Below the pieces are notes generated by a model, which saw nothing but the letters and a program-made list of their open reading frames with translations, was not told where the DNA came from and did no database searches. Position numbers and translations under genes: made by a program. Source: Nitrospirales bacterium (lineage in GTDB: Bacteria > Nitrospirota > Nitrospiria > Nitrospirales > UBA8639). Taken from it: DNA of 36,352 nt. The DNA is taken from the NCBI GenBank assembly GCA_021604105.1, contig BQIW01000044.1, positions 1 to 36,352 on the forward strand, given 5' to 3'. The stretch's first letter is position 1. The number at the start of each line of letters is the position of its first letter. Positions 12,801-35,302 of the stretch are shown piece by piece.

Positions 12801-12815
12801 ACATTCATCCTCTCT

Positions 12816-14231: not shown

Positions 14232-14360
14232 CCGATATTCCTTTCGTCATTCTCTATACCATGACGAAATGCATAACGTTCTTCGATCGTATCAAGAGAA
14301 CGCGATCTCTCAGAGGCAGGAACTCTGGGTTCATGAGCTGCAAACGAATTGAAACGTCCA

Positions 14361-14759
14361 CTAAATATTTTCTTCTACAAACAAACCTGACTGTCCGGAA
14401 AATAAACGCGCAAGATCTACCACCTGTTCTGAAGGTATCTGTCGGATGAGGTCACCTGATTCTTTATCCACGACTCGAAAAATCACCTGATTAATATCCT
14501 TTTCCAAAGAGATCTCAATTCGGGGATCAACCTGCTTCACCCTTTCTTGAAGGCGAGCCACTGTTGCCTGGACCTGCTCCGCAGTCAATATTTCATTCAC
14601 CGTTGAATCCTTGGAAAAGTCTGGCCCATAGACTGGCGGTTTGGTCTCTGATTTGCGCTGAATATCACCCGTGATGGATTTCTGTCCATCTCGCACGCGA
14701 ATCTCATTTCCAACGGAGATATTTATAAAAGAGGCGCTGTCAGAAAGCGTTGAAATCAT
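14361..14759 (-). CDS. flaG: FlaG-family flagellar protein
   Basis: A 132-residue FlaG protein. The family is linked to control of flagellar filament length, though its mechanism is unclear. The conserved C-terminal half is plain: a helix LTAEQVQATVARLQERVKQ, then strands with ISLEKDINQVIFRVVDKESGDLIRQIPSE, where the RVVDK/IRQIP pattern is diagnostic, and a final helix. The N-terminal 55 residues are low-complexity and variable, as usual. No clear Shine-Dalgarno precedes the ATG. The gene lies 68 nt downstream of fliC, past a strong hairpin, so it may be expressed by read-through at a lower level than flagellin. Confidence 0.9.
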   Translation of the reverse strand: MISTLSDSASFINISVGNEIRVRDGQKSITGDIQRKSETKPPVYGPDFSKDSTVNEILTAEQVQATVARLQERVKQVDPRIEISLEKDINQVIFRVVDKESGDLIRQIPSEQVVDLARLFSGQSGLFVEENI

Positions 14760-15955: not shown

Positions 15956-16504
15956 TCACAGAGGAGGGGTAATATTTCGAGAAAGACAAGGAATCACTTC
16001 ATACTCCAACATGTCTGCGATTCGAACCCCATCTTCGTTTTCTCGAGCATTCAGTAATTCTTTGATCCAGAACGTTAGGTCATGGATGACCTCAGGCTTT
16101 TTAAGCCCCATAGATTCATGAACCTGTAGCCACTCAAGGTAATCGGCTATTTGGCCGAACCATTGGTCTAGCTGGTGGTATTTTCCATCCCCTCGTCGGA
16201 AAGCATTAACAAACTTCTGTCCTTGATCGCGTAGCTGTGCTCCGAATTGTTGGCCTGTTTTTTCAGAATACTGCACGATGGTTTCCACATGTTTACTCAC
16301 GGCCGCTATCGATCCAAACGAGCTCGCCAATTTGGCCAAGGTGGGAGGCACTAACTCCCGATCCGTCATCTTCCGATTCCCAACTATTAATTCCGTCACC
16401 AAACACCCCTTGGCCTGAGCGCGGTCACTCAAATTGGCCAGAACTTCCCCTAGCTGCACACGATCACCCACTTCCCAGGTTTCTTCATCCAATTGTACGT
16501 GCAT
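15956..16504 (-). CDS. Protein of unknown function between the sugar locus and fliC
   Basis: A 182-residue protein I do not recognise. The N-terminus (MHVQLDEETWEVGDRVQLGE) is strand-rich and followed by LSDRAQAKGCLVTELIVGNRKMTDREL. From about residue 60 it is helical, with YHQLDQWFGQIADYLEWLQ and a C-terminal helical pair ending IPCLSRN. There is no signal peptide or membrane span, so it is probably cytosolic. The ATG at 16504 lies inside the end of the upstream GT9 gene (20-nt overlap) and is preceded by a run of eight G, which can serve as its ribosome-binding site. Coupling to the GT9 gene and position before fliC suggest a role in flagellin handling or glycosylation, but that is inference. 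Confidence 0.72.
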   Translation of the reverse strand: MHVQLDEETWEVGDRVQLGEVLANLSDRAQAKGCLVTELIVGNRKMTDRELVPPTLAKLASSFGSIAAVSKHVETIVQYSEKTGQQFGAQLRDQGQKFVNAFRRGDGKYHQLDQWFGQIADYLEWLQVHESMGLKKPEVIHDLTFWIKELLNARENEDGVRIADMLEYEVIPCLSRNITPPL

Positions 16505-18140
16505 ACAGCCCCCCCCTTGGATCATGAGAAAACATTCCTTCCAACTGATTATAATTTTCCTCCCCTCGAGTGCGAAATACATGATACGCTCGAGCATGTT
16601 CCTCGGCCATTCCGCTAAGAGTCAAAGCCTCCAAGCTAAAGGTATCTCGGAAAAAAGCCATCGCTAAAGGACCAAAGGCCAATGACGGCCTGGCGATCTG
16701 TTGCATCGTGAGTGTATCCACTTTTAACTGGTTCTGGCGTGCCTTTAACTTGTTAACTGGAATAGGCCTTTGACGACACAGATCCAATACGGTATCGGCT
16801 TGAAGACACAACTGATCGAGCTGGGGAGCCAAACGACGCCATACCTGCTCGCAGTCTGAAAAATCCGGTGTAGGCGTTGGGGGAAAAGGGACCAGACTAG
16901 GAGTGCCGGTAAAGGATTGATACCAGTATTGCCGCCAATACTCCGCATACCAGGAGACGCGCGGCTCTTCCGTTCCCGCTCTTATCCTAAATGTCCCTAA
17001 CTGATCTTCATTGACCCCACCTTCATATACTCGGATCTTGGACGAAAACGATGGAAAGGGCCGTTTACCTAAGAGATGTAAGCAGAGGTCGGCCACCTCT
17101 TGAGGAATGATCTGGTCTTTACAGGCATGGTGAGGACAGACCTTATCGAATCCGCATGGGCCACACATGATCTCGGGCTGAACCACCCAATGCCCTGATC
17201 CAAACGGCCCGGTTTCCCAAAAATTCACATGGCCCACCGAGAGGTTCAGGACCGGCGTATTCACTCCCACAGCCATGTGCATGGGCCCAGTGTCATTAGT
17301 CACCATCAACACACAATGTTCAAGCAAGGCAACCAGTTGTGGCACAGTGGTTTGGCCAACGGCTTCACATATGTCTCCCAATCCCCCCGCCTGCCGGTAA
17401 CACCGTATGGCCTCCTGAACTTCCGACTCCTCTTTCTTGGTGCCAATCAATACAAATCCGACCGGATGTTTTTGGCTGAGACACGCCATCATTTGTCCAA
17501 AGTATTCCGGTCGCCAGGCTTTCATCGGATCACTGGCGCCGACTTGAATGCCAATCCACTCATCGGCAGTTCCTGCTTGTCTCACATAGATCCGTGCCCA
17601 TTCTTTCATGTGCTGGGGCACAGATAAGCAAAGAGGATTAAACGAACCCGGACCGCTCCCACCAAGGGAAAAAAGATCCACGATATTGAACCGATTCAAT
17701 TGCCGATACACATGGAAATCCACGAAATATTTCATCCAAGGATTTTTCACCACGAAACTCCCATCCGGGGTCGTAGTCATTCCTCGCTCATCTGCACACC
17801 CGAAATATTTCACCAGAAACGCACTGCGGCGATTAAAGGTCAGGTTCACGACACGATCGTACCCAACCTGGACTAACGGTTGAACCCACCCGGCAAGTTC
17901 CCGGTAAAGGGCGACCACATCCCGCCCTCGCACCCGGCTTTCATCCATCAGCAGCTGAAAGTCAAACATTAACACCTGTCGAATCCCAGGAATTAGGCTG
18001 GCGACATGGGCAAATTCTTTATCAACAATCAGATCAATGGCCACACCGGGCCATTCTTCCTCTAACCGTGAAAGAAGGGGGACCATCTGAATTAAATCAC
18101 CCATCCGGGTAATATTAATAATGAGGATTTGTTTTTTCAT
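16485..18140 (-). CDS. GT9-family glycosyltransferase (heptosyltransferase-like) with C-terminal extension
   Basis: A 551-residue protein whose first ~375 residues are a GT9/heptosyltransferase (GT-B fold), the enzymes that move heptose from ADP-heptose to LPS core. It shows INITRMGDLIQMVPLL with Asp15 in the catalytic-base position, VGASDPMKAWRPEYF, NDTGPMHMA (282-290) and a cysteine cluster (Cys326, 329, 335, 340) typical of WaaF-type members. The last ~175 residues are a helix-rich extension without a recognisable domain. The ATG at 18140 is preferred over the TTG at 18143; no Shine-Dalgarno is clear. A run of eight G near the 3' end overlaps the start of the next gene. Its acceptor could be LPS or, given the neighbours, flagellin. 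Confidence 0.88.
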   Translation of the reverse strand: MKKQILIINITRMGDLIQMVPLLSRLEEEWPGVAIDLIVDKEFAHVASLIPGIRQVLMFDFQLLMDESRVRGRDVVALYRELAGWVQPLVQVGYDRVVNLTFNRRSAFLVKYFGCADERGMTTTPDGSFVVKNPWMKYFVDFHVYRQLNRFNIVDLFSLGGSGPGSFNPLCLSVPQHMKEWARIYVRQAGTADEWIGIQVGASDPMKAWRPEYFGQMMACLSQKHPVGFVLIGTKKEESEVQEAIRCYRQAGGLGDICEAVGQTTVPQLVALLEHCVLMVTNDTGPMHMAVGVNTPVLNLSVGHVNFWETGPFGSGHWVVQPEIMCGPCGFDKVCPHHACKDQIIPQEVADLCLHLLGKRPFPSFSSKIRVYEGGVNEDQLGTFRIRAGTEEPRVSWYAEYWRQYWYQSFTGTPSLVPFPPTPTPDFSDCEQVWRRLAPQLDQLCLQADTVLDLCRQRPIPVNKLKARQNQLKVDTLTMQQIARPSLAFGPLAMAFFRDTFSLEALTLSGMAEEHARAYHVFRTRGEENYNQLEGMFSHDPRGGLYARTIG

Positions 18141-18179
18141 CAAAAATTGGCAGTCGCGGAAAATTACCCCATCATAGGT

Positions 18180-19997
18180 TCAAAGAAAATCCCGCTTTTC
18201 CTGTCGGTACTCATCCATCATCAAAATTAGTAATTCCTCACGGCTTAATCGGGCTTCAGGCCCTTTATTCCGAATACTTTTCGCCACATCCACTAACTCC
18301 ACCCGATCAGTGGGAGGAAACTGCTTCAGCATGGGGATCAATTCCGGCGTCTTCCCACTTCGCGCCACCAGGGATTCAGCATGACGGTCTCCCTGAAGGA
18401 TAGATCCTAACCGGTCAGGACTCGCCATACCCACGGCGCCTAAGAATGTCTTCATCCGATGTCCGTACGTATGCGCCTCTAATACCCGCTTTCTGGATAA
18501 TTCAGCCATGGCCACTCGCCTGACTGGTTCATGCAGATAGGTTTGGACGGTTGGGAGGAGCTGATCCGGATTGTTGATTACCGCCACCATTGATTCATCA
18601 AAGAGGGCCGGGAGCAAGGTGCGAGTATCAACCACTTGAAACGCCCCGCAACTGGCTAATTCGAATGTCCTGGGATTCACCCCATCTCCCTGCGGATCGA
18701 ATCCATCTCCCGTATACGAATGCAAATTAATATTGACCGAGGTGGCATTAAAAATTTTCACACTGGTGGAGGTATCAATACGTGCGCCCCCTCTCTGAAG
18801 AACCGGCGCTAACGCCCCCGGGTTGTCCCATTCATTCCCCCACAATTTAAATGTCCACTCATGGCCTACCAGGGATGGGAGGATATGTCGCCGATTTCTA
18901 TATCCTGCTCCTAAAAACGAGACGTCGGCACCAAACTCCTGTCGCTCTTCTTCCGTGAAGGTCATAGGGTGATGAATGGCCGGATCAGCAGCCAAGGGAA
19001 GATAGGAGACGTGTTTGGCACCGGCTTTTCTGAAAGCGTCCAAGCATGCCGCTTGTTGCATCACAAACCAAAAGTCATACCCCGTCACCATCTGCTGCCA
19101 ATAGGTTAAATGCCGAAAATTTTCCACAAACCACATGGCCGTTAACACCTTCTTTCGACGCATTTGCTCTAAAACGGCCATGGTCAATGGCGCCTGGGAC
19201 AAGGCAAACACAAGATCCGGGGGATCTTCTGCCACATGAGCAAGGCTTATCACCGCCAGCGTTTCACTCATTCGTTGCTGGACTGTGAGCCGCAACCGGG
19301 GATCACGGATCGTTTCCAAATTCTGATAACCCGCATAATGAGGACTATGATCCACCCAACTTACACGATGTCCAAGTCCCTCCAATGCATTGACCACATA
19401 TCGGGCGATCGGCAACGACCCGCCATAAATAGGTCCGACCACCATGATGTGAAGCGCCCCGCTTAATTGTTGAGCGAGATGCTCACGAAGCTGCAGACGA
19501 AAGTGTTCATAGGTCTCACGATGAATCGTGGCCGCAGGTTCGTAACTCAGAATACGCACCCGCTTGGCTTCCTGTGTCACTTGGACAGCTATATCAGTCA
19601 TGGAACCCGTCAGCCATATCACCCCTTCACCCCACCCTTCCAACGCCCGGACTGAAACACAATCCGCAAATTCCGAAAGGTCCGGCACAATGACCATTAT
19701 GACCTGGTCACGGGGCAACATCTGACGCAAGGCTTGCACGTGGTAAATGAGCCCCACGCCAAGGAGGACAAGAGTTTCCTCGGCTTGACACTCTTTCACG
19801 CGTTCTTCAGCCCAGCGCTCCGCCTCGCGAATCGGATCATACGCACTATGGAGATATCGGGAGTTGACAAGCGCGGTGGGCATTCCAGATTTAGATGGTT
19901 GGATCGACAGGGTTCCTCCTTGTACCCGGAGGATCTGAGCGGCAAGAATCGGATCCTGGTCGCGAAGAATATCGATATTCTTTTTCAACACATCCAT
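18180..19997 (-). CDS. Maf-like N-terminal domain fused to a CgeB-like glycosyltransferase
   Basis: A 605-residue protein. Residues about 40-180 resemble the N-terminal part of Maf motility-accessory factors, the enzymes that place nonulosonic acids on flagellin: SAYDPIREAERW (51-62), LVLLGVGLIYHV (77-87) and MVIVPDL (101-107). From about 183 on the pattern is that of CgeB/YkvP-type GT-B transferases: MVVGPIYGGSLPIARYVV, WFVENFRHL, YLPLAADPAIH, DVSFLGAGYRNRR, and the donor-site stretch GVNPRTFELASCGAFQVVD. An AGGA lies 8 nt before the ATG. It sits between two GT9 genes, two genes from the flagellin unit. I infer a flagellin or surface-glycan transferase; the donor sugar is unknown. Confidence 0.78.
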   Translation of the reverse strand: MDVLKKNIDILRDQDPILAAQILRVQGGTLSIQPSKSGMPTALVNSRYLHSAYDPIREAERWAEERVKECQAEETLVLLGVGLIYHVQALRQMLPRDQVIMVIVPDLSEFADCVSVRALEGWGEGVIWLTGSMTDIAVQVTQEAKRVRILSYEPAATIHRETYEHFRLQLREHLAQQLSGALHIMVVGPIYGGSLPIARYVVNALEGLGHRVSWVDHSPHYAGYQNLETIRDPRLRLTVQQRMSETLAVISLAHVAEDPPDLVFALSQAPLTMAVLEQMRRKKVLTAMWFVENFRHLTYWQQMVTGYDFWFVMQQAACLDAFRKAGAKHVSYLPLAADPAIHHPMTFTEEERQEFGADVSFLGAGYRNRRHILPSLVGHEWTFKLWGNEWDNPGALAPVLQRGGARIDTSTSVKIFNATSVNINLHSYTGDGFDPQGDGVNPRTFELASCGAFQVVDTRTLLPALFDESMVAVINNPDQLLPTVQTYLHEPVRRVAMAELSRKRVLEAHTYGHRMKTFLGAVGMASPDRLGSILQGDRHAESLVARSGKTPELIPMLKQFPPTDRVELVDVAKSIRNKGPEARLSREELLILMMDEYRQEKRDFL

Positions 19998-20068: not shown

Positions 20069-21304
20069 CTACTTCGAGACTTCCATCCGAATACCTTGAT
20101 TCGCCACCTGAGACAACGCCTCCCACGTATCTTTTCGCCGGAGGACAGCCTCGTCAGGGATGCCATCCCTGGTATAAAACGCCCCCCACTCATCTCTATT
20201 GCTGATCCAGAGATCCCACCCATCTGTTGTGGCATTCACCGGAGCTTCCCGCATTAAATTGACGGTTTCCATCACAGGCCAATAGGCAGAGAATGATCCA
20301 GCAGCGCTTACTTCACGGACATCCGGACTCTCCCGAAGTTTGGCTCCCGCGCATTGCCACACATAATGACCAATCCCATAAGGGCCCGTTTCATGGACTC
20401 TGGCCTGGGAGAAATACCAGCCGATCGCCCGCGCCCCACACATCGCTCCGAGATGCAATGGTCCCGTATCCGATCCGACCACCCACTGACACCGATTAAG
20501 AAGAGCCACAAGCTGGGGCAACGAGGTCCGGCCACACCCATTCACGACCCGATTGAGATATTTAGCGGGAAGACGATGCTCCAAGGCCAATGCCGCTTCC
20601 CGTTCTCCCGCACCCCCGACCAATAGCAGATAGCACTGAGGAATGTGCTCAGCGCATGCGGCAATCAGGTCTTGCCACACAGAAAGGGGAACTCGCCGGT
20701 CGGCATCTCCCGCACCAAGAACAATTCCGATAAGAGTAGAAGGCTCTCCATTCACCGGCAGTTCCAGCTCAAAGGGCAATGACACCTCCTGGGCCTGTAA
20801 GTAGGAAACATCCAATGGCGGAGAAACCTGACACAACCCGCAAAACGCATCCGCTAAATGCACCCGGTTGCTCCCTCGATCTCGAGCAATTTGACGTAAA
20901 TATCCCGCCCATGCCGGAAGCGTCTGATTCAATGGTCCATACTCGCCAGGACCGACAACCAGACCACTCAATACATGGGCAGCAAGTATCCCGCGAGGAT
21001 GGTTATTCAAATTATAGGCCAATGCATACGGGGGAAAGGCACAGTCAGCTAAATAGCGAGTGGCTCGGGCTAGTTGTTGATCACAATCCGTCATCCTGGT
21101 CGTGGCGAATTCATGCCATTGTTCCCCATTCCAAGGGAAAACCCTGTCCACACAAGGGAAAAGTTCTCCAAGCGCCACCAAGGGCGAAGGGCAAAGGAGA
21201 TCAAGAGGTCGCTCAGGATAGGCGGTTTGCAGAGCAGTCAAAACAGGAAGAGATTGGACCAGATCACCAAGCCGAGCGAATTGTATTAAGAGGGCTCGGG
21301 ACAT
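20069..21304 (-). CDS. GT9-family glycosyltransferase (heptosyltransferase-like)
   Basis: A 411-residue GT9 protein with LIQFARLGDLVQSLPVL at the N-terminus (Asp14 at the catalytic-base position), VLGAGDADRRVPLSVW in the middle and GSDTGPLHLGAMCGARAIG (277-295) at the nucleotide-sugar side. Unlike its paralogue at 16485-18140 it lacks the four-cysteine cluster and the long C-terminal extension, though a C-terminal ~70-residue stretch (to AVLRRKDTWEALSQVANQG) follows the core. No clear ribosome-binding site precedes the ATG. The gene starts 33 nt after the giant transferase gene. Two divergent GT9 enzymes in one locus suggest two different heptose, or similar, linkages. Confidence 0.9.
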   Translation of the reverse strand: MSRALLIQFARLGDLVQSLPVLTALQTAYPERPLDLLCPSPLVALGELFPCVDRVFPWNGEQWHEFATTRMTDCDQQLARATRYLADCAFPPYALAYNLNNHPRGILAAHVLSGLVVGPGEYGPLNQTLPAWAGYLRQIARDRGSNRVHLADAFCGLCQVSPPLDVSYLQAQEVSLPFELELPVNGEPSTLIGIVLGAGDADRRVPLSVWQDLIAACAEHIPQCYLLLVGGAGEREAALALEHRLPAKYLNRVVNGCGRTSLPQLVALLNRCQWVVGSDTGPLHLGAMCGARAIGWYFSQARVHETGPYGIGHYVWQCAGAKLRESPDVREVSAAGSFSAYWPVMETVNLMREAPVNATTDGWDLWISNRDEWGAFYTRDGIPDEAVLRRKDTWEALSQVANQGIRMEVSK

Positions 21305-21337: not shown

Positions 21338-24300
21338 TTAAGTTGCGAGGGCATGACGGTCAGGATGTGCCGACTGCAGGAGAACCTCTAAATCGTGTAA
21401 TCCCTCATAATCGGGCTTTAAGAGGCTTAACATCTCAAATTGTTGCTTGGCCACATCGAGTCGACTCGCACGAAATTCCACCCCGGCCAGAGCAAAGCGC
21501 ATATCGCAGTCTGCAGGATTTCGTTCGACATACCGCGCGAGCCGTTCCCCCAAGCCTTTCCATCGTTGCAGGGATGTGCCGGCCTGAATCAACCCATTTA
21601 TGGCTTCGACATCATCCGGATGATCGACCAGCACCTGTTCAAAAATTTTCCAGGCTTCTTCCAAATCTCCCATCCCCATACACGCCATTCCCAAACCGAT
21701 GCGGGTTTTTCGAGAATCTGCGCCACATTGAAGAGCGCGACGAAATGACAGGGCCGCCTCACCACATTGCTGGGATTGCATCAACAGAATTCCCTGCAAC
21801 CAGTGACCCGACCCATTGCTGGGATCAGATTGAAGGAGCGCCTGGATTTGCTCAGTCGCCTCAGACAGATCCTTCCCGCTGAGCGCCAGTTTGGCGAGTC
21901 GTTCCCGTGCCGCTCGATCTTCTCCCATACTCAGTATCCGTTTCAAAAATGCCCGCTCCCCATCCAATAGCTGGAACGATTGGCAAAGCTTGGCTGCCCA
22001 TCTAAGCACTGCGCCATCATCCGGCCAATCTCGATACTCGGAAAGGAGAGCCTGTAATTCACGGTCGTCCTGGCTATTCAAGCCCTCGCCTGCGGCATGC
22101 CGCTGACGTAATAGGAATTCCTGCACCCGTTGAACTCGTTGCCACTGCGTTATTTCCCTATCGCCCTGCAGTGCCTCGAGCGACGGTTGAAGCCTCCCGT
22201 CACGCAAGGAATACCGGTTGGCATAGCCTGCCGGAACCGTATGGAAATCCTCATCGACCACAATGGAGGAAGCCCACCGTTCCATGAGCACAATGCCATT
22301 GTGCCGTTCGGCCCCATGATCCTTCCTTCCGGGAGTTTGATGTTCCAAATGATAGAGCACACTTTCCGGTTGATAGATGACTTTCTTGCCCCGTTTGCCC
22401 ACTTTGAGGCACAGGTCCACATCCTCGAACCCGTTCTGATAGATCTCGTCAAATTGCCCAACCGCATTAAATTCCTCAGGGCGAATGAGCATACAAGCCG
22501 CAGTGACAACCTGAAACTCTTGACGAATATTGGCCGCGCGCAGGTCTCCTGGAGCACCACGGAATATATGGTAGGGCGTCAAACAATGTTTTGCGAAAAC
22601 CACGCCGGCATGTTGAATAGTGTTATTTGGATAGAGAAGCTTGCTCCCGACAATGGCAACATCCTGATGGCTCTCGACTTCATTCAATAAAGCCCGCAAC
22701 CATCCTGGCTTCGGAATTGTATCGTTATTTAAAAAGACCAGAAAACGCCCCTTGGCAGAAGCGGCCCCTTGGTTGCAGGCTTTGGCAAACCCATAATTGG
22801 CCGGATTCGTGATGACCTGAATATCCCCACTTAAAGAAGACAGAAATGCTGAAGTCTCATCGGTGGATGCATTATCGACGACAATGACTTCATACGAACA
22901 GCCATCCGTGACCTCCGCCAAACGAGTCAAGCACTGCCGGGTCAATGCCACTTTATTCCAAACTGGAATAATGATTGAACAATCAAAGGAACACTTGGCA
23001 TGGTTGATTGGAAAATAAGAGGGCTCTGGTGAACTCTGTAATTTCGACTGAGGCACCCTGTTTGAGGATGTTACGTCTCGGCCCAACCAGGCCTGTTCAT
23101 ACTGAGGAAGCACATGTTCCATAAGACGATGGTTCAATACCCAGGCTCGGAGATGATCACCTTCCCTTTCTAAGGCACCTAAATCATGAATTCGTTCGCG
23201 AATCGCCTTGATCCAGGCTTGTGGTTCGTGCGGCAACCGTATGATGGGAGCATGTTGATGGGGAAAAATATCCGTGCCAATAACCGGATAGCCCAATATT
23301 CCATACTGTAAAATTCTAATATCACTTTTGGCTTCATTGAATGGATTTGGCACCAATGGCGCCAATGCAAGATCAAGATTGAGACTCGCCAATTTTTTCG
23401 GATACTGAGCCACGTCTACCATGGAAAATGTTTCGCTGATCACACCTGGACTACTGGCCATGCGGGGTGCATCTCCGAGGAATACCCATTCAACCTCATC
23501 TTTCAGGGCCTCAATAATCGTTTCCAAAATCGCCGCATCACCCTTGTGCACCTTCGCTTGTCCTGCCCATCCAATCCGAGGACGGGAACCGGCTTGACGT
23601 TGGGGTTTGAAATCCGCCCACTCCTGACGTGTTAAACAATTAAGAAGAACCGTCGACTTTATTCCTCGTTGGTTCAAATCAGCGTGAATAGGTTCAGTAG
23701 AGACCGTCACACAATTCGCCAGGGCCATCAGACGAAACATTCCTTCAAGACGTTCAGGCGTGAAAAACTCATGATTCGGATTATCGACAGGGATCTTCCA
23801 TAGCAAATCGTCACAGTCATAGACGATTCGGGTGCCTTGACTTCGGGCCTCCTTTAAAGTTTCTTCTGACAGCTTACAATTACGCTGAATGGCCCAAACC
23901 TGCGCGACACCCATAGGCGGCAGTGTGGCGTCACCTGAAAGAATATTAAGATCATTCACAATTGCGCCTTTTCCCCAAATCCCTTCACCAGCCAGGAGTG
24001 GTTGAAGGAGTCGAATACGACCACATATATAATCAGACCCAATCACCGAAACGCTTCGCCAGCCCTCCGGAGAAGTACCTCGTGGGCTATCAAGAATCAC
24101 TTCCCAAGGACGTTCATCAGTCTGAACCCATCGGCGAGTGGGGCCCTCAGAACCTTCGAGTTGTTCTCGAGCATGGAGTTCCTTCACGAAGGGAGACGAA
24201 CAATACAGCGATTTCACACCTGTTTGATAATTCTCCCAATTTTTAGTCGCAATGTCCTGAACATTTCTTCTCCGACATTCATCTTTGAATGACCGGTACT

Positions 24301-26533
24301 CAGCATGGGTCTCTTCTTCAATACCATCAGTGGCCTTAAATGTATGTGTGTCAATGTGGGCTGCTCTTCCGGCGGGAAGATGTACCCCCACCTGTTCATC
24401 CTCCATATAAGCATTCTGCAAACCCTGCAACTGGATTCTCAAACCATAATCCGCATCCTCCTCGCCGTACAATCCATAATCTTCAGACCAAAATCCCAAG
24501 ACTTCGTGAGTTCGCTTTGGGATGAGTGTACATGCCCCATTTAAATTCCCAACTTTCGGCCGAATGGGCACTCCCCGCATCTCACGCATGGGATAACTCA
24601 CTGGTTCAAAGCTATAAGCAATAGCGCCCAATTCCGGGATATGATCGATGACCCCAACCATCCTGGATAACCAGCCGGGCTTTTCAATAACAATGTCATT
24701 GTCCAACTTAAGGTAATAATCAGCATCAGGTTCCCTGCTCCAGGCCAAATTCGAAGCCTTCGCAATCCCTACATTCTCTGGCAACAAAATCAGATTCGTG
24801 ATAAAACCTTGCTGATAAAGGGCTAGTAAATACTCTGGCGTACCATCTGTACTTCCGTTATCCACAACCGTGATAACATGGGGGAAACAGGTATGCTGAA
24901 AAAGCGCAGTGATTGCCTGTTTCGTAAATTCCAATCGATTAAAAGTCACCATGCAGATATTAACGAATTTCCCAGTCCTGATTTTGCCTTGAAACTGATA
25001 ATTGTTTATGTTCTGAGCCTTGGGGGCAGGAAATTTATTCCGGTAAGCTTGTTGCACGTGTCGGGTTTCCCGATGAGCACGTTCTGGATTGGAATTAATG
25101 ACACCCTCTGGGTTCTCATAATACAACCCAAGAAAGGTGGCTATGTGCTTCATAGGATACCGTTCAGCAATCCTGCACCAAAATTCATAATCGGTAGCCG
25201 ACGGCAACGTCTCATCGAAATACCCAACTTCATCATGTACCGATTTCCTCCACATGGCCTGTGGACCCATGTGACACCCTGACAGCATGATATCTAGTGA
25301 AAATTCCGGACGAATGTGATAGCCACAACGAATATGATTGACGAACCGCTGATTTTCAAAATTCGTGACTAGCACATCTCCATAAACTAAAGCGACATTC
25401 CGATGAGCATCCAACTCTGACGCCAAGATCTCCAGGGCATCTACCCGGCGTCGATCATCAGTTGGAGCCAGGGTAATATACTGACCACGAGCCATCCGAA
25501 TTCCACGATTACAGGCTGCAGCGGGGTTTTCCCTTCTACTGGTTCGTACATAAATGATATTAGAGAATCGAGCCTGAAATTCCGCAATAATCTTGTATTC
25601 TTCAGTTTGGGAACCCGTTTCCACGATAATGATTTCTATTTCCTTCGCAATCGTTTGTTCTTCCAAATCTACTAATGCTCCACGCATAAACCGTTCGGCA
25701 TTATACGCGGCTACTATAACGGAGATTCGAGGAAGCACTGTTTGAGATTTCTGAAGAGTTGAATCCGAGACAGAAAGATCGGAATAAGCTTGTGCTGTCA
25801 CAGATGCCTCCACAATTGGTCGAACAAAAGAAGAATGATGTGCAGACTCCTTGAGTAAATAGAAATCTGCAGGCTTGGGAATACACACCGTCTTCCCCTG
25901 ATAGCCTAGGGTCCAGGGGTACCCCTGGATCAACGAAACATCTTTTCGATACACCAAGGCAAAGCCATTTCCAATTTTGTCATCTTTTTCCCGACTATCA
26001 ACTAGAACAAGCCTCTCCCCAAAGAATTGGGAAAAGAATTCCTTCATGGTCCCTGATGAAAAGATATGGTAATGGCAGTGAAGAAATCGTCCAGCTTCCG
26101 GCTCAGTCTCTGCTGTGGCATTTAATACATAATCTTGCACAATATGCTTCCAGTCAGTCAGAGGTTTCCCTCTATCCCCTGGAGCAGCTTCCGGATGTGG
26201 GGCAATGAGATACAAAAATCCCCCCGGCTTAATGATTCGATACCATTCCCACAACGTTTCCAAAAAATTAGGACAGTGCTCAATTACGTGGGACGACAAC
26301 ACAAATCCTTCAGATTCGCTGGGAACCGGAATGGCATCAGCCTCAGCCAAGATATCTAATGGAGCTGCTTCCCCGACTAGTGCAATTTGCTCATGATGAT
26401 AGATGGCATCTGGCAGTCCGACGGTCCTCGTCTCTAACCCAAACGGGTTATGGGCAGAGGGACCAATTTCTAAACCTTTCAACCCATCCAGCCAGCGATG
26501 TGCCATTTGACTTTCTGGAAAGATATGTTTCAT
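21338..26533 (-). CDS. Giant multi-domain protein: methyltransferase-GT2-GT2-GT4-GT2-TPR
   Basis: A 1731-residue polypeptide carrying six modules in one open frame. Residues 1-~200: SAM-dependent methyltransferase (LEIGPS, LSSHVIEH, RIIKPGGFLYL). About 269-476: GT2 (ISVIVAAYNAERF; TDD at 358-360). About 523-731: second GT2 (VNICMVTFNRLEFTKQAI, VVDNGSTDGTPEY, KLDND). About 828-1150: GT4/GT-B-like (DYICGRIRLLQPLL, YDCDDLLW, RIGWAGQAKVHKGDA, DIRILQYGILGYPVIG). About 1183-1396: third GT2, rhamnosyltransferase-like (CSIIIPVWNKVALTRQCL, FLNNDTIPKPGW, GFEDVDLCLKVG). About 1500-1731: TPR repeats. The ATG at 26533 has GGAAG 5 nt upstream; a TTG lies at 26545. It could build a repeat unit of an O-antigen or flagellin glycan. 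Confidence 0.92.
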   Translation of the reverse strand: MKHIFPESQMAHRWLDGLKGLEIGPSAHNPFGLETRTVGLPDAIYHHEQIALVGEAAPLDILAEADAIPVPSESEGFVLSSHVIEHCPNFLETLWEWYRIIKPGGFLYLIAPHPEAAPGDRGKPLTDWKHIVQDYVLNATAETEPEAGRFLHCHYHIFSSGTMKEFFSQFFGERLVLVDSREKDDKIGNGFALVYRKDVSLIQGYPWTLGYQGKTVCIPKPADFYLLKESAHHSSFVRPIVEASVTAQAYSDLSVSDSTLQKSQTVLPRISVIVAAYNAERFMRGALVDLEEQTIAKEIEIIIVETGSQTEEYKIIAEFQARFSNIIYVRTSRRENPAAACNRGIRMARGQYITLAPTDDRRRVDALEILASELDAHRNVALVYGDVLVTNFENQRFVNHIRCGYHIRPEFSLDIMLSGCHMGPQAMWRKSVHDEVGYFDETLPSATDYEFWCRIAERYPMKHIATFLGLYYENPEGVINSNPERAHRETRHVQQAYRNKFPAPKAQNINNYQFQGKIRTGKFVNICMVTFNRLEFTKQAITALFQHTCFPHVITVVDNGSTDGTPEYLLALYQQGFITNLILLPENVGIAKASNLAWSREPDADYYLKLDNDIVIEKPGWLSRMVGVIDHIPELGAIAYSFEPVSYPMREMRGVPIRPKVGNLNGACTLIPKRTHEVLGFWSEDYGLYGEEDADYGLRIQLQGLQNAYMEDEQVGVHLPAGRAAHIDTHTFKATDGIEEETHAEYRSFKDECRRRNVQDIATKNWENYQTGVKSLYCSSPFVKELHAREQLEGSEGPTRRWVQTDERPWEVILDSPRGTSPEGWRSVSVIGSDYICGRIRLLQPLLAGEGIWGKGAIVNDLNILSGDATLPPMGVAQVWAIQRNCKLSEETLKEARSQGTRIVYDCDDLLWKIPVDNPNHEFFTPERLEGMFRLMALANCVTVSTEPIHADLNQRGIKSTVLLNCLTRQEWADFKPQRQAGSRPRIGWAGQAKVHKGDAAILETIIEALKDEVEWVFLGDAPRMASSPGVISETFSMVDVAQYPKKLASLNLDLALAPLVPNPFNEAKSDIRILQYGILGYPVIGTDIFPHQHAPIIRLPHEPQAWIKAIRERIHDLGALEREGDHLRAWVLNHRLMEHVLPQYEQAWLGRDVTSSNRVPQSKLQSSPEPSYFPINHAKCSFDCSIIIPVWNKVALTRQCLTRLAEVTDGCSYEVIVVDNASTDETSAFLSSLSGDIQVITNPANYGFAKACNQGAASAKGRFLVFLNNDTIPKPGWLRALLNEVESHQDVAIVGSKLLYPNNTIQHAGVVFAKHCLTPYHIFRGAPGDLRAANIRQEFQVVTAACMLIRPEEFNAVGQFDEIYQNGFEDVDLCLKVGKRGKKVIYQPESVLYHLEHQTPGRKDHGAERHNGIVLMERWASSIVVDEDFHTVPAGYANRYSLRDGRLQPSLEALQGDREITQWQRVQRVQEFLLRQRHAAGEGLNSQDDRELQALLSEYRDWPDDGAVLRWAAKLCQSFQLLDGERAFLKRILSMGEDRAARERLAKLALSGKDLSEATEQIQALLQSDPSNGSGHWLQGILLMQSQQCGEAALSFRRALQCGADSRKTRIGLGMACMGMGDLEEAWKIFEQVLVDHPDDVEAINGLIQAGTSLQRWKGLGERLARYVERNPADCDMRFALAGVEFRASRLDVAKQQFEMLSLLKPDYEGLHDLEVLLQSAHPDRHALAT

Positions 26534-26556
26534 AAGTACTTCCAATTCATCCCATT

Positions 26557-27570
26557 TTACGAGACACGAACACGCGCTCCGCTAAATTGAACGGGGGCTC
26601 TCTTCCCCTGATTCTCCATCTGTTCACGATACCAGCCTAAAGTTTTCTTCAACCCAGCCTGAAGAGTGATCTTTGGAGAAAATCCTAACTGGACTGTTGC
26701 CTTCTCCACGTCAAGTAGGCGAATAGGAATCATAGAAGGCTTGCTGGGATTGGTGATCACATTGGCATTCTGGTATTCATCAACTGCGAGAAGCGTCGTT
26801 AACACATCATGCACACGACACCCTTTTCCATAACCAATGTTTACCGGATCGAACTGATTTAACCTGGCCATCGCTAGCATCACGGCATCAATAAAGTCAT
26901 CCACATATATTAAGTCTCTGACATCTTCACCTGTTCCCCAGACCTCGAGAGGATTTTGCCGTTCAACAACTTTGCGGAGAAGGGCCGCGGTCACATGGGA
27001 ACGTTCAAAATCAAATTTGTCATATGGCCCATAAACATTAGATGGTCTCACGACTACCGTCTTCATCGAATCCTTGATTTTTTCAGAATAGATTCGACAC
27101 AGGACCTCCCCATATCGTTTCATCCATCCCACACTGAAGTAGGCTTCATAGGGATCCCCGGCAAACATGTCCGCCTCGGATACCGGCCGATCCCCACTGG
27201 GTGGATAGGCCGCACTACTGCTAATAAAGAGAAACTTCTTTACCTTTGCCTGATAGGAAGCCTCCAACATCTGGGCGTTCATCACGACGTTCGGCGTCAC
27301 ATGAGCTAAAGGCTGGGTCGCCATGACCGCCGCACCTGAGGTATTCGCGGCACACATGAAGACATAATCCATGCCCTCTACGACCCGACGACACTCTTCC
27401 ATGTTCGTCAAATCGGCTTTGACATATTCCAGATCCTGGTGCTCGAATTGCGGGCTACGTGTATGCAATGTCCCGCGTACATAGCTTCCCTCTTCCACCA
27501 AACGCTTAGCCATATTGGTTCCCAGAAATCCTCCCGCACCCGTCACTAATACTTTACTACCCTTAAACAT
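26557..27570 (-). CDS. Extended SDR, NAD-dependent nucleotide-sugar epimerase/dehydratase
   Basis: A 337-residue extended short-chain dehydrogenase resembling GDP-fucose synthase (Fcl/WcaG)-type enzymes. It has the NAD-binding GAGGFLG (11-17), FISSSAAYPP (115-124), VVRPSNVYGP, and EVWGTGEDVRDLIYVDDF, the usual late motif. The catalytic YxxxK is altered: in FSVGWMKRYGE, Lys151 is kept but the position four before it is Val, not Tyr. I chose the ATG at 27570, which overlaps the upstream stop by 8 nt and has AAGGAG 6 nt before it; the frame extends to 27669 only as a shadow. It probably reduces, epimerises or dehydrates a nucleotide sugar (GDP- or dTDP-). Confidence 0.86.
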   Translation of the reverse strand: MFKGSKVLVTGAGGFLGTNMAKRLVEEGSYVRGTLHTRSPQFEHQDLEYVKADLTNMEECRRVVEGMDYVFMCAANTSGAAVMATQPLAHVTPNVVMNAQMLEASYQAKVKKFLFISSSAAYPPSGDRPVSEADMFAGDPYEAYFSVGWMKRYGEVLCRIYSEKIKDSMKTVVVRPSNVYGPYDKFDFERSHVTAALLRKVVERQNPLEVWGTGEDVRDLIYVDDFIDAVMLAMARLNQFDPVNIGYGKGCRVHDVLTTLLAVDEYQNANVITNPSKPSMIPIRLLDVEKATVQLGFSPKITLQAGLKKTLGWYREQMENQGKRAPVQFSGARVRVS

Positions 27571-28120
27571 GAGCGACTCCTTCATCCCGTTGGGACACAA
27601 TCGGCTGTTTGACCGGCCACCAGATTCCCAAAGTTGGATCATTCCAAGGTAACGTAAATTGCCCTTCACGGTTATAATTGGTCGTTTGCTTATAGTGGAA
27701 AATGGCCTGCTCAGACAGCACTAGATGAGCATTTCCAAACTTGGGTGGGATCAACACTTGTTGACGTTTCTGATCTGAGAGCGTGAACGATTCCCACTGT
27801 TGATACTGTGGGGACATGGAATCGCAATTCACTACGACCAAATAAAATTTTCCCCACAAACATGACACCAGCTTCCAGGTCTCTTGGTCTCCATGAATGC
27901 CTCGCAACACATGCCTGCCAGACACGGAGATGTCATCCTGCATAAAAGGCATATCAATTCCAGCTTGCCGATACAGGTCCTCGTTAAACGTTTCAACATA
28001 GGTACCCCGAAAATCTTCAAAAATTGTCGGTGGAGTGACCAGTCTCACGCCTTCCAGACGGCAGAAAGAGACGGCTAAATTAGGAGGCGGCGAAATAGTT
28101 TTTCCGGTGAAGATATTCAT
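27563..28120 (-). CDS. RmlC-like cupin nucleotide-sugar epimerase
   Basis: A 185-residue RmlC/dTDP-4-dehydrorhamnose-3,5-epimerase-like cupin. It shows IFEDFRGTYVETFNEDLY (33-50), VLRGIHGDQETWKLV (71-85; His76 in the position of the catalytic histidine), VLIPPKFGNAHLVLSE and the WNDPTLGIWWP end. His76 to Lys83 is 7 residues, against 10 in classic RmlC, so it belongs to a variant subgroup. Related enzymes epimerise 4-keto-heptoses in Campylobacter capsule synthesis, which fits the heptose genes here. Start ATG at 28120 has GGAG 7 nt upstream, and it overlaps the preceding SDR gene by 41 nt. The next gene overlaps its stop by 8 nt. Confidence 0.85.
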   Translation of the reverse strand: MNIFTGKTISPPPNLAVSFCRLEGVRLVTPPTIFEDFRGTYVETFNEDLYRQAGIDMPFMQDDISVSGRHVLRGIHGDQETWKLVSCLWGKFYLVVVNCDSMSPQYQQWESFTLSDQKRQQVLIPPKFGNAHLVLSEQAIFHYKQTTNYNREGQFTLPWNDPTLGIWWPVKQPIVSQRDEGVAHV

Positions 28121-29108
28121 CATGGTGCTCCAGGTACCAATCCCATGTGTGCTGTAACCCCTCTTGAAGACTGACTTGCGGTGCATACCCGAGAAGATGC
28201 TTTGCCAAAGAAATATCCATCACACGCCGGGGAAATCCGGTGGGTTTGTTGTGATCAAATCGGGCCCGGAACGGCACAACCGATTGAAGTGCTTCTACTA
28301 ATTCTTTGATGGTATAGCCGATACCACTGCCTAAATTGACATAACGCCCACCCGTGCCATGGTACAAAGCAAGAATCACTCCATCAGCCACATCACCACT
28401 ATAGGCAAAATCACGAATGGCGGTGCCATCTCCCCAAATCACTACCGGATCCTCTTTCGAAAATATCCGTCGCATGAGGGTGGGAATAACCATGGCATTG
28501 GCAGGATCGAAATTATCTCCAGGTCCATACACATTGCAGGGACGCACCACCGCATAGTGCTTCAGACCGTACTGTATTTGGTAGGCGCGAACTTGCAATT
28601 CGGCCATTCGTTTGGCCCATCCAGGGAACATATCCATTGGTGGCCCTTCATCCTCACCTTCCTGTTCCTTGAAAATTTCCGCACTCGGGTACGCGCCAAT
28701 AGAGGAGGTATAAACCACCCGATCAACCTTATTCAGGCGACAGGCCTCCAACATATTGGTATTCATCATCAACAACGGGACGAAAAAACTTGCCGGCTTT
28801 GATTTCGTGACCTCAATGGAACCTTTGATTCCCGCCACATGAAAAACACAATCCATGTCTTTCACTATCCGTTGGCAAAATCCAAAATCGCACAAATCAC
28901 CCTTCACATACTCCACCTTATCTTCAACCTGGATCTCATCAAGAGACACACTTCGAACGGAGGCCCCAGCCTCTATCAACCGACTTACAATTTTCCGTCC
29001 GATCAACCCACTTCCCCCCGTCACGACAATATTTTTTCCATAAAAGAACTGCATAATGGAATCGGCAATCATGTCCTGGCGTATTTGCTCAGCAATAGTT
29101 TGAAGCAC
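28080..29108 (-). CDS. Extended SDR, NAD-dependent nucleotide-sugar epimerase/dehydratase
   Basis: A 342-residue extended SDR with a GTG start at 29108 preceded by AAGGAG 7 nt upstream. It has GGSGLIG (31-37), VAGIKGSIEV (91-100), VYTSSIGAYP (132-141), VVRPCNVYGPGDNFDPANAMVIPTL and VIWGDGTAIRDFAYSGDV. The YxxxK site reads FPGWAKRMAE: Lys166 is kept, but Pro162 stands where the tyrosine is expected. It is a close paralogue of the SDR at 32459-33469 (both carry the GIKGS signature and FVPxL.....N.LEA). It probably acts on the same class of nucleotide sugar, perhaps at another step. Confidence 0.87.
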   Translation of the reverse strand: MLQTIAEQIRQDMIADSIMQFFYGKNIVVTGGSGLIGRKIVSRLIEAGASVRSVSLDEIQVEDKVEYVKGDLCDFGFCQRIVKDMDCVFHVAGIKGSIEVTKSKPASFFVPLLMMNTNMLEACRLNKVDRVVYTSSIGAYPSAEIFKEQEGEDEGPPMDMFPGWAKRMAELQVRAYQIQYGLKHYAVVRPCNVYGPGDNFDPANAMVIPTLMRRIFSKEDPVVIWGDGTAIRDFAYSGDVADGVILALYHGTGGRYVNLGSGIGYTIKELVEALQSVVPFRARFDHNKPTGFPRRVMDISLAKHLLGYAPQVSLQEGLQHTWDWYLEHHDEYLHRKNYFAAS

Positions 29109-29137
29109 GGACTCACTCCTTAGAGGTTGTAGGACCT

Positions 29138-29899
29138 TTATTCGAACACCACATACGACACTCGAGAGGCAAACGGAAATCGCTGAATTTTCAAATGATT
29201 CAATCCAAAGACTTCCATCAGGGCGAGGGTCTCTCCCGGGGAATCCGGATCATTCAATTCATCAAACCCCAGAATGGTGCCCTTGGTCATTCGAGGACGA
29301 AGGAGCTCAAGGCACTTGACCGTTGGTTCATACAAATCTAAATCAAAATAGGCCATAGCCACGATGGTTTCCGGGCATCTGGCCAGATATTGAGGCAACT
29401 CCTCCACCACATCCCCCACGCACAATTCATGTTTTTTAATATGGGTTAACGGATTAAGTGTTTCATGAAGACTGAGTAACTGTTGAAGAGTTTCTTCATA
29501 GTGAGGCGAGACGGCTAATTGTCCATTCACCATCATATTGGATTGCCCATCTTTTGCATGGATAGAAGGAAACCCGGAAAACGTATCAAATCCAACAATT
29601 TTCCGATGCCGGTTAAAGGGTTCATAGATCCCTCGCAATGCGGAAAACAAGGCAAGATTTTGCCCCCACCGTACTCCAAACTCCATAACGACTCCTTGAA
29701 CAGCGATGATCTGACGATACAAGAAGTCCATGAATAACATGCGAGCCAAATGCTTGGATTCTAGAAATAGTCCAAGATTCGATAGCAATTGGTCAGGGGG
29801 AATCGGATTTTGATAGAGCAAATCCCCCATCTGCTGCCGAGCCGCTTGCTCACTTGGATTCGCATAAGATTTAATCTGTAATTTCTCCGCGTTCACCAT
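29138..29899 (-). CDS. TylF/MycF-like SAM-dependent O-methyltransferase
   Basis: A 253-residue protein of the macrocin O-methyltransferase (TylF) family, Mg-dependent enzymes that methylate sugar hydroxyls. It shows VVMEFGVRWGQNLALFSALR (70-89; SAM motif), KIVGFDTFSGFPSI (100-113), FDLDLYEPTVKCLELLRPRM and ILGFDELNDP near the metal site. In the last, Asp-Glu stands where related enzymes have Asp-Asp. Start ATG at 29899 overlaps the upstream stop as TGATG, with GGAG 8 nt before it; GTG at 29902 is an alternative. Chain ends VSYVVFE. Likely it O-methylates the locus sugar or its glycan. Confidence 0.85.
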   Translation of the reverse strand: MVNAEKLQIKSYANPSEQAARQQMGDLLYQNPIPPDQLLSNLGLFLESKHLARMLFMDFLYRQIIAVQGVVMEFGVRWGQNLALFSALRGIYEPFNRHRKIVGFDTFSGFPSIHAKDGQSNMMVNGQLAVSPHYEETLQQLLSLHETLNPLTHIKKHELCVGDVVEELPQYLARCPETIVAMAYFDLDLYEPTVKCLELLRPRMTKGTILGFDELNDPDSPGETLALMEVFGLNHLKIQRFPFASRVSYVVFE

Positions 29900-30882
29900 C
29901 ACATCTTCTCCTCTACTGGCTTCCAGATCACCATAGAATAGCCATCATGGTATAGTGAGCCAAAAGTTCGGATCGTTCCAACAATTTCCAGCCGGCCTTC
30001 GTGCTCAAAAGTCTTCAAGGTTCCGAGCAATCCTTGCAAATACTTTCTTTTCTCCAGGTATCTGGCTGCGACGTAATCAAACAAGACGTTCTGATCGTAG
30101 AGTTCATACAGCGTTTCCACATGAATGCAAACAGAAGGGCGTTGTCTAAGAAGATAATTCACAAAACCATGGTACTGACAGCCCAATTGCTCCATGGCGC
30201 CAACGGTAAACACTCCGCTCCGAGGATACAGGTCAAACGATTCATCAGGCTCCAACATGTTAAATTCCCGACCAACGACATTAAATCCATGCTCTGCTTT
30301 CAACAGCCGAAGGATCGCCTGAGAGGATTGCGACCAATCCAATCCATACAGGGGACGACCTGGAAACAAACAAGCCGCATCGACTAAATTATGTCCGGTT
30401 CCACAACCAAACTCGTAAATATGGTCAACGGCATGAAACCATTTCTTGAACATCCAGTAACGCAGAATTTCAACAACGTTGGTCTCAAACTGAGAGGAAA
30501 CAGGCCGGACGTACTCACCCTTTAACCTGATGACTTCCTGAGGTCGAACAAATTTGGGGACCAATGCAGCCAAATCATACCCCGTGCGCTGAAAGTTACT
30601 TAAATTTTCTGCCCATCCATCTTCCCAACGCTGTTTCCGATGTGTCCCTGCGACTTCCAGATTCTGGTCGAGGGTTTTCAACACCCGAAGCACGACTCGG
30701 TCACGAGAAACCCCTTGCAACGTGTTGTAACGCAAATCGTACCGTCCAACCAATTCCTGACATTCCGGAAAGAGCGCTCCAGGAGCTTCCCCCAATATGG
30801 CCTCAAAATCTTCTTGATGAAGCGCCTCCTGGTGGTTATGAATCTGCTGGAGCGGAAGAGTGTCAAGCATAAATCTATTCAA
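29899..30882 (-). CDS. SAM-dependent methyltransferase with an N-terminal extension
   Basis: A 327-residue protein with a class I methyltransferase domain in the C-terminal half: HIYEFGCGTGHNLVDAAC (154-171; motif I with Glu157), YGLDWSQSSQAI (179-190) and VFTVGAMEQLG. The first ~145 residues (LVGRYDLRYNTLQGVSRDRV, NFQRTGYDLAALVPKF) are not recognised and may shape the acceptor site. The start is uncertain: TTG at 30882 is 6 nt after the upstream stop, and an in-frame ATG lies at 30870; neither has a clear Shine-Dalgarno. It ends in a TGATG overlap with the TylF-like gene, so the two methyltransferases are translationally coupled. Confidence 0.82.
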   Translation of the reverse strand: MNRFMLDTLPLQQIHNHQEALHQEDFEAILGEAPGALFPECQELVGRYDLRYNTLQGVSRDRVVLRVLKTLDQNLEVAGTHRKQRWEDGWAENLSNFQRTGYDLAALVPKFVRPQEVIRLKGEYVRPVSSQFETNVVEILRYWMFKKWFHAVDHIYEFGCGTGHNLVDAACLFPGRPLYGLDWSQSSQAILRLLKAEHGFNVVGREFNMLEPDESFDLYPRSGVFTVGAMEQLGCQYHGFVNYLLRQRPSVCIHVETLYELYDQNVLFDYVAARYLEKRKYLQGLLGTLKTFEHEGRLEIVGTIRTFGSLYHDGYSMVIWKPVEEKM

Positions 30883-30888
30883 AACCCA

Positions 30889-32004
30889 TCAGGAAAAATC
30901 CTCAATCAATGCCGGTAGCGGCTTTTCAAATCCGTGAGCAATAACCCATGCCCAATAACGGATTCGACCTTCCAATAACTCAAAGCGGTCAGAGGAAGAT
31001 TTAGCGGGGCGGAGACGTACTGGTTTCAAAAATTCCCCTGTGGCAATTTGTTCCGCTAATTCCTGCGGACTAGGCACGCAATTCATGGCATTTCTGAGAG
31101 CTTCGTCGAGAGTTCGATAGACCGAACGTCCCGAGTCATCAGCAACTTGTATGGACCGAGGTGGAATCTCTAGAAAGTGACCAGTACACTTTTCTTCCAG
31201 ATACCGAGCATCCTCCTCTTTTAAATCGAAATCCATGCTTTTCGCGTTTTCCTTCATTCGTTCACTATTCGTGGTATTTGGAATCACCACGACCGGTAGA
31301 TGCCCAGTCAACCACCGTAAAACAATTTGAGCTGGAGTTTTATCGTATTGATTCGCGATCGTCTGAAGAATACCAAACTGCCTACGATTCGCCACGATTC
31401 GTCCCCGATGAAGAGGACTATAGGCGACAATGCTGATGCCTTCTTGTTGCCCAAAAGGCAGGAATTCCCGTTCAATACTTCGATCGAACAAATTATATTC
31501 CACCTGAACGGAGGCTAAATGCTTTGGTGGTAGCTTCTGGTGTATTTCTTGAGTGTCGTTAAATGAAAAATTGCAGATTCCTACATATCGGACTAACCCC
31601 TCTCGTGCTATCTCTTCCAGGCCCATCAAGGTGTCCGAGAGGGGGATTTGGGGATTGGGCCAGTGGATTTGGAGAAGGTCAATCCGGTCTGTTTGCAGAC
31701 GCCGAAGACTTCCTTCGACCGAACCTTTAATTCCTTTTGAAGATATATTCTCAGGAGAGACCTTGGTTGCCAACACCACAGCATGGCGAATCCCCTTTAA
31801 GGCTTTGCCAATGACCATTTCGGCCTCTCCCTCACCATAGACGGGTGCCGTATCAACAAAGTTTATTCCCATCTCAATTCCGGTTCGAATTGTGGATTCA
31901 AGTTGCCGATAGATTTCACGATTCTTCAGGGAATGATGAATCCCGGTTCCCTGCCCGACTGCAGAAATTTCTATGTCAGATTGCCCTAATTTTTTAAGAA
32001 TCAT
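30889..32004 (-). CDS. Aldo/keto reductase fused to a ParB/Srx-like C-terminal domain
   Basis: A 371-residue protein. Residues 1-~275 are an aldo/keto reductase with its full catalytic tetrad: Asp51 and Tyr56 in NFVDTAPVYGEGEAE, Lys81 in ATKVSPEN and His114 in QIHWPNP. The NADPH-side pattern VVVIPNTTNSERMKENA (238-254) is present. Residues ~280-371 look like the ParB/sulfiredoxin-like fold: LAEQIATGEFLKPVRLRP, then RFELLEGRIRYWAWVIAHGF and PLPALI, close to the ParB pattern yeLl-GhRRl-A. Such a fusion is unusual and could act as a nucleotide-binding or regulatory add-on. The reductase may reduce a keto-sugar intermediate. No clear ribosome-binding site. Confidence 0.8.
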   Translation of the reverse strand: MILKKLGQSDIEISAVGQGTGIHHSLKNREIYRQLESTIRTGIEMGINFVDTAPVYGEGEAEMVIGKALKGIRHAVVLATKVSPENISSKGIKGSVEGSLRRLQTDRIDLLQIHWPNPQIPLSDTLMGLEEIAREGLVRYVGICNFSFNDTQEIHQKLPPKHLASVQVEYNLFDRSIEREFLPFGQQEGISIVAYSPLHRGRIVANRRQFGILQTIANQYDKTPAQIVLRWLTGHLPVVVIPNTTNSERMKENAKSMDFDLKEEDARYLEEKCTGHFLEIPPRSIQVADDSGRSVYRTLDEALRNAMNCVPSPQELAEQIATGEFLKPVRLRPAKSSSDRFELLEGRIRYWAWVIAHGFEKPLPALIEDFS

Positions 32005-32019
32005 TGGACTCGTCCAGGG

Positions 32020-32487
32020 TTACAGCTGGATACTCCAATCGTCTAAGTCATCCACCGAGACATTACTCGCGCGGCACACTCTGGTTGCATTTCTCACTCG
32101 GGCTAAGAGCAGATTTTTCATCTGATTTCTGATCCCATTTAATTGATGAGCTCTTTTCAACCACTGATCGTACAGTTTGGGTTCAGCCTTCATTCTCTCT
32201 TTGCACATCCAGATTTCGTAATTAATTTGGGCAAGTACAATAATGATCCTAACGTTCCGCCCTGACAATTTGATCTGATGTCGATCAGCCCATCCATCAA
32301 TATCATGCTCCAGATCAGCGATTTCTGTTCTCACAGATGTCCGGATCGATTCATGGAAGGCCTCTTTCAATTGATCAACAGTTAAGCGATCGACCAGATC
32401 TCCCAACCCAGGTACAAATCGAGGACTTGAAGGTCCTCCTGTCTTCCGTTTCCGTTTTTTAGGCGCTAAGAAGGTTTTTCCGCTCAT
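32020..32487 (-). CDS. Small basic protein of unknown function in the sugar locus
   Basis: A 155-residue protein I do not recognise. The N-terminus is strongly basic (APKKRKRKTGG) and Pro/Ser-rich, followed by predicted helices (LTVDQLKEAFHESIRTSVRTE, IADLEHDIDGWADRHQI, IIIVLAQINYEIWMCKERM), and an acidic C-terminus (VSVDDLDDWSIQL). No signal peptide or membrane span. The ATG at 32487 lies inside the preceding SDR gene (29-nt overlap), with GGGA about 9 nt upstream; the frame extends further upstream only as a shadow. Position in the chain of overlapping genes makes it likely to be expressed. The 15-nt gap to the reductase gene suggests co-translation. Confidence 0.68.
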   Translation of the reverse strand: MSGKTFLAPKKRKRKTGGPSSPRFVPGLGDLVDRLTVDQLKEAFHESIRTSVRTEIADLEHDIDGWADRHQIKLSGRNVRIIIVLAQINYEIWMCKERMKAEPKLYDQWLKRAHQLNGIRNQMKNLLLARVRNATRVCRASNVSVDDLDDWSIQL

Positions 32488-33469: not shown

Positions 33470-33500
33470 AAACATCCTTGGCTAAATCGATAGAAAAATT

Positions 33501-35301: not shown

Positions 35302-35302
35302 G

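Follow-up and report, generated by a model that had tools for sequence, protein, structure and literature searches.

Multi-module glycosyltransferase (GT) proteins, and GTs guided to flagellin by tetratricopeptide repeats (TPR), are already known. In Caulobacter crescentus, FlmG binds flagellin through its TPR domain, and its GT domain alone is insufficient (PMC7591256). FlmG is a protein of 596 amino acids with an N-terminal TPR and a single GT-B domain that uses a pseudaminic acid donor (PMC7591256). The type B GT2 of C. difficile (CDR20291_0242), encoded beside fliC, fuses PF00535 with PF08241, adds two rhamnoses to the flagellin glycan and probably methylates them; in the consulted passages, neither a GT4 module nor a TPR tail is described, and no exchange of modules (PMC5207246). 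In WsaE of Geobacillus stearothermophilus, two GT domains come after a methyltransferase at the N-terminus; the enzyme provides a methyl cap, but its product is a lipid-linked S-layer glycan that depends on Wzm/Wzt export and transfer by an oligosaccharyltransferase, with no link to flagellin (PMC2943079). KfoC, the K4 chondroitin polymerase (K4CP; 2z86/2z87), carries two GT2 domains on one chain and polymerises an alternating glycosaminoglycan in the absence of methyltransferase, GT4 and TPR domains. A protein-bound oligosaccharide is built stepwise in the cytosol by the streptococcal Fap1 pathway, whose dGT1 is a GT of only two domains that performs two steps; the substrate is an adhesin and the host is Gram-positive (PMC5207161).

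The megaprotein described here, from a Nitrospirales bacterium, resembles FlmG in that TPR and GT domains share one predicted soluble chain within a flagellin pathway, and WsaE in that a methyltransferase and several GT domains are joined. In contrast to FlmG, its TPR is C-terminal and lies beside a GT-A domain (GT2C), and the chain holds four GTs and a methyltransferase. Since the two proteins differ in GT fold and in where the TPR lies, the megaprotein is not filed as FlmG-type. Relative to the C. difficile enzyme, it has three GT2 modules, one GT4 module and a TPR. A literature search returned nothing relevant on Nitrospira flagellin glycosylation or on TPR-bearing multi-GT proteins acting on flagellin. 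The literature searched also held no bacterial order in which a constant, flagellin-linked GT2-TPR end is combined with reshuffled GT and methyltransferase front modules. While multi-module GT proteins are known even from this phylum and genome, what is new is an order-wide, flagellin-linked family with a constant GT2C-TPR end and block exchange. The megaprotein is probably a cytosolic enzyme with several active sites that assembles the flagellin O-glycan, with TPR docking and exchangeable N-terminal modules.

The window, meaning the whole stretch of DNA analysed, comprises 36,352 nucleotides of contig BQIW01000044.1 (genome G000), and the window features given below lie on its minus strand. 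The megaprotein of 1,731 amino acids is coded at 21341..26533, with an ATG at 26533 and a stop at 21338, and the plus strand at these coordinates is filled with many stops. An alternative TTG start four codons 5' of the ATG would give a frame of 1,735 amino acids (26545..21338). The order of modules is methyltransferase, GT2A, GT2B, GT4, GT2C and TPR. Pfam recovers Methyltransf_11 (E 3e-7), three Glycos_transf_2 stretches (E 9e-65 together) and a TPR_16/TPR_19 tail; NCBIfam agrees with its GT2-type and TPR matches and yields no equivalog above its cutoff. Together with the fold of the GT4 module, these searches uphold the four transferase modules and the six-module chain of 1,731 residues proposed by the sequence-only reading. 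No 19-residue window exceeds a Kyte-Doolittle (KD) value of 1.26, so that no transmembrane segment is found by this measure and the protein is predicted to be soluble. Full-length orthologues of 1,731-1,745 amino acids in f1, the family to which the window belongs, share this domain order and are 62-78% identical, and the named orthologue records are metagenome-assembled genomes of Nitrospirales/Nitrospirota. Two of these orthologues come from the single-contig genomes G029 and G030, and their intactness indicates that the megaprotein is not an artefact. Purifying selection acts on all modules (dN/dS about 0.08-0.27). One orthologue, in G019 (L055/L056, region 15641-20830), is broken by an in-frame TAA and is either a pseudogene or the result of a sequencing error.

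Structure prediction was informative for one half of the chain. AlphaFold, run on residues 815-1731 with 29 family rows, gave a mean pLDDT of 81 with an inter-domain orientation that is not confident (pTM 0.46), while residues 1-815 were modelled poorly (pLDDT 47), leaving the N-terminal domains to sequence profiles. The GT2B module (residues 512-770; 24224..25000; Pfam and alignment) bears DND and GEEDADYG motifs. The GT4 module (residues 825-1170; 23024..24061) has no Pfam match, but alignment and its modelled structure place it: model residues 11-340 align by VIA-align over about 305 residues with HepE, BshA, PimA and others at Z 22-23, and this predicted GT-B fold confirms membership in GT4. 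Its conserved motif is FNExKSD...LQYG, and Gln replaces the second Glu of EX7E in each of the 18 f1 copies compared. The GT2C module (residues 1175-1430; 22244..23011; Pfam and fold match), with NND and GFEDVD motifs, is the most conserved by invariant columns. Its model (residues 368-635) is a GT-A fold that matches polypeptide GalNAc-T2 at Z 24 and the GT2 enzyme WrtF at Z 21.6. The GalNAc-T2 match was rejected as proof of polypeptide transfer by GT2C because GT2 and GT27 share this fold; moreover, GT27 enzymes have a ricin-type lectin domain C-terminal to the GT-A domain where the megaprotein has TPR, and Pfam assigns GT2. The tail itself (residues 1470-1731; 21341..22126; Pfam TPR_16/19) is modelled as all-helical repeats with pLDDT of 90 and above.

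Turning to the N-terminal modules, the methyltransferase (residues 1-240; 25814..26533) carries the LEIGPSAHNPFGL motif and, besides its Methyltransf_11 assignment, has weak PDB matches to SAM methyltransferases; its model is poor. GT2A (residues 262-500; 25034..25750) was delimited by Pfam and by alignments with K4CP, its best solved sequence relative (E 1e-21), and SpsA. All three PF00535 stretches show a DxD-like site and a catalytic Asp, with the exception that GT2A is without the first Asp. The TDD, DND and NND sites singled out earlier were found as PTDD (residue 357; 25454-25465), LDNDI (610) and LNNDT (1268). Equating the GT2A TDD with the TDD of SpsA was dropped, as the ungapped alignment pairs PTDD with SpsA TDDN and K4CP DSDD. 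It follows from this pairing that the first Asp of the DxD is truly replaced, by Pro, and that the second is retained. The replacement, and the variability of the site among the nearest relatives (PADD, NSDD, STND), could be taken to mean that GT2A is a dead or metal-independent domain with a structural or acceptor-binding role. This is very unlikely, given that all close copies retain both the Asp that follows and the catalytic one (ATDYEFW, 25178-25198) and that selection is strong and similar to that on other GT modules (dN/dS 0.077 for G000-G035 and 0.076 for G000-G029, compared to 0.09 for GT2C). Thus the unusual site noted in the sequence-only reading is real, its suggested inactivity is unlikely, and an altered donor contact is possible.

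The genes downstream of the megaprotein place it in a flagellar context. On one strand follow GT9b (20069..21304; Glyco_transf_9), which adjoins it, a GT with DUF3880 and Glyco_trans_1_2 domains (18180..19997), GT9a (16485..18143), a conserved 213-residue protein (15956..16597), flagellin (14828..15655) and FlaG, FliD and FliS (12408..14759; Pfam), the three GT genes being assigned by Pfam and synteny. The 213-residue protein, defined by synteny and without a Pfam match, separates GT9a from flagellin in both families and may act as a glycosylation partner or as a chaperone for flagellin. Further on, a CsgG-domain protein adjoins a PilZ protein (9149-11429), and many relatives keep it downstream of FliS. 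The flagellin, of 275 amino acids with Flagellin_N/C domains, is the presumed acceptor. The order from the mega gene through GT9b, the DUF3880-type GT, GT9a, the 213-residue protein and flagellin to FlaG and FliD recurs in 36 loci from two families, with flagellin about 5.5 kb (5.4-8.2 kb) downstream of the mega gene and on its strand. This arrangement was seen at 20 of the 20 loci examined in the second family and at every f1 locus on a long enough contig, except in genus g9 (G023, G025) and at the second G022 locus, where the flank examined contains no flagellin. The proximity to fliC that had been raised as a question is therefore an order-wide link. In genomes without the sugar cassette, FlgK, FlgL, a GGDEF regulator and a histidine kinase are found upstream, and with flagellin downstream this puts the mega unit inside a flagellar gene block.

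Where present, an optional nucleotide-sugar cassette (26557..36335 in the window; Pfam) is inserted between the FlgK/FlgL-side block and the mega gene; it is missing in G034, G036, G037 and G047. It encodes SDRs, an RmlC-like epimerase, two methyltransferases, an aldo-keto reductase, a split transketolase, a NUDIX-domain protein and a GHMP kinase, a content that suggests the synthesis of an unusual branched or higher-carbon sugar. Genomes with GT2B carry SDR1 and RmlC immediately upstream in 10/10 and 9/10 cases, versus 1/11 of the others (10/10 vs 1/11, Fisher 3e-5, with relatedness not removed). Such sugar genes upstream are also what would be expected of an O-antigen/LPS or capsule polymerase-type protein, similar to WsaE or WbdA, that builds a lipid-linked glycan and neighbours flagellar genes by coincidence. 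Fused methyltransferase and GT modules are typical of those systems (WsaE, PMC2943079; K. pneumoniae O7, PMC11231755), and large multi-GT2 proteins without TPR or nearby flagellin are found in other parts of the phylum as well as in this genome. Nevertheless, this explanation is unlikely in view of the constant position upstream of flagellin in two families and the machinery encoded: among the window and cassette ORFs examined by Pfam (beyond the window end, those of relative G030), there is no flippase, polymerase, phosphoglycosyltransferase or other lipid-primer GT, ABC exporter (Wzm/Wzt), Wzx/Wzy or oligosaccharyltransferase. Four GT sites, three further GTs and several methyltransferases, in a locus whose examined ORFs include no lipid-carrier or export machinery, fit direct stepwise cytosolic glycosylation of flagellin, and flagellin itself, not an O-antigen, is the most likely target of the oligosaccharide.

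The megaprotein is one member of a modular family and not a one-off six-module design. Across the Nitrospirales, chains of the family range from 1,040 to 3,496 amino acids. Beyond the orthologues of identical order, relatives of 1,085 to 3,496 amino acids are built as GT2A-GT2B-GT4-GT2C-TPR or with several GT2C-TPR units per chain, and yet another architecture places GT4-GT2C-TPR behind a different methyltransferase. A GT4-GT2C-TPR profile matches open frames of 1,051-2,322 amino acids in 59 sampled genomes of the second family at E < 1e-160. Outside the order, its best matches cover GT2C alone, and at the 10 loci examined these GT2C-sized matches fall in large proteins without TPR or nearby flagellin. 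In two genomes, a methyltransferase-like module of 440 residues with weak Pfam support follows the TPR (G041, L058:16952-18271; G039, L060:18310-19632). It is unrelated to the cassette methyltransferase at 29902-30882, and the notion that the chain always ends in TPR was dropped on its account. In the window's own genome, a second multi-GT protein of 1,092 amino acids without TPR is encoded in another sugar cluster (L131 15153-18431, minus strand, G000:C78), with relatives in the genus.

This modularity bears on whether the megaprotein could be a flagellar glycan enzyme whose independent GTs were fused for co-expression, with neither docking nor channelling and with a TPR that serves oligomerization. 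In G033 the transferase modules are indeed separable, with a GT protein of 1,147 amino acids upstream of a mega protein of 1,098 (L076:4211-7651 and 261-3554, both minus strand), and the uncertain inter-domain orientation of the model is compatible with independent domains. Yet GT2C and TPR stay together and repeat as a unit up to three times per chain, and in the longest proteins the internal units fall into clades of their own that several genomes have in common, which indicates that modules are reused. Fusion for co-expression thus seems improbable, and the docking enzyme remains the preferred reading.

Exchange of modules was analysed in seven orthologues of the same architecture (G000, G019, G029, G030, G042, G044 and G046). 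For the MT-GT2A block, G030, G046 and G042 stand apart from G000, G029, G044 and G019, while for the GT2C-TPR block G000, G030 and G046 group together, and in AU tests each block rejects the grouping of the other (p 5e-64 and 3e-47). The breakpoint region maps to the GT2A/GT2B linker (residues about 495-540; 24914..25051) by sliding identity, AU and dS. Sliding identity of G000 to G046 is 35-65% in residues 1-500, 83-98% from GT2B on and 74-81% around the GT2B-GT4 linker; identity to G044 shows the opposite pattern. Synonymous divergence is independent of selection on the protein. Between G046 and G042, dS differs about fourfold between blocks (0.30-0.41 vs 1.30), and G000 and G030 show the contrast in the opposite sense. 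The MT-GT2A block is therefore swapped as a unit, even between genomes with identical flagellin such as G000 and G046. Pairwise divergence of this N-terminal block is uncorrelated with that of operon genes (rho -0.1 to 0.01), whereas GT4 and GT2C-TPR follow flagellin and the downstream genes (rho 0.67-0.82, with 0.82 for the C block and GT4 against flagellin). Hence GT2C-TPR is nearly constant and tracks flagellin while the N-terminal part varies, a further point against the lipid-linked glycan explanation. A parallel between N-block and cassette alleles is unsupported, as G030 combines allele II with the cassette that G000 carries; since the two do not co-segregate, an exchange need not change the sugar.

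With the FlmG TPR and the C. difficile GT2 as precedents, the GT2C-TPR end is proposed to face flagellin. The C-terminal TPR tail would dock the flagellin chain or a flagellin-bound partner, and GT2C, next to it, would act nearest the protein. GT4, GT2B and GT2A would then attach subsequent sugars and the N-terminal methyltransferase would methylate an outer one. The acceptor, the docking, the order of transfer and the donor sugars in this scheme are all putative: TPR tails are generic and could serve another partner or oligomerization, the TPR is not always the tail, as the module after it in G039 and G041 makes clear, and linear module order need not equal transfer order. The three GTs encoded separately downstream (two GT9, one GT-B) would join in, completing an oligosaccharide on flagellin before export. 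The earlier idea that one chain assembles and caps an oligosaccharide therefore survives in spirit, although not as the work of that chain alone. Recombination at the N-terminus would alter the outer sugars and leave flagellin unchanged. More tentatively, the family might work as an assembly line for the flagellar glycan, in which a constant flagellin-docking GT2-TPR end, joined to exchangeable GT and methyltransferase modules in one chain of up to about 3,500 amino acids, allows linker recombination to switch the glycan in one step while flagellin is left as it is; if true, this would be the equivalent, within a single gene, of serotype switching in O-antigens, and would extend through the whole order Nitrospirales.

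The family would offer a natural module-swap set with which to ask whether, in protein O-glycans, the succession of sugars is dictated by the order of the modules. It would also predict that nitrite oxidizers have glycosylated flagella that vary among lineages, and such lineage-variable flagellar glycans could influence sensitivity to flagellotropic phages and biofilm behaviour.
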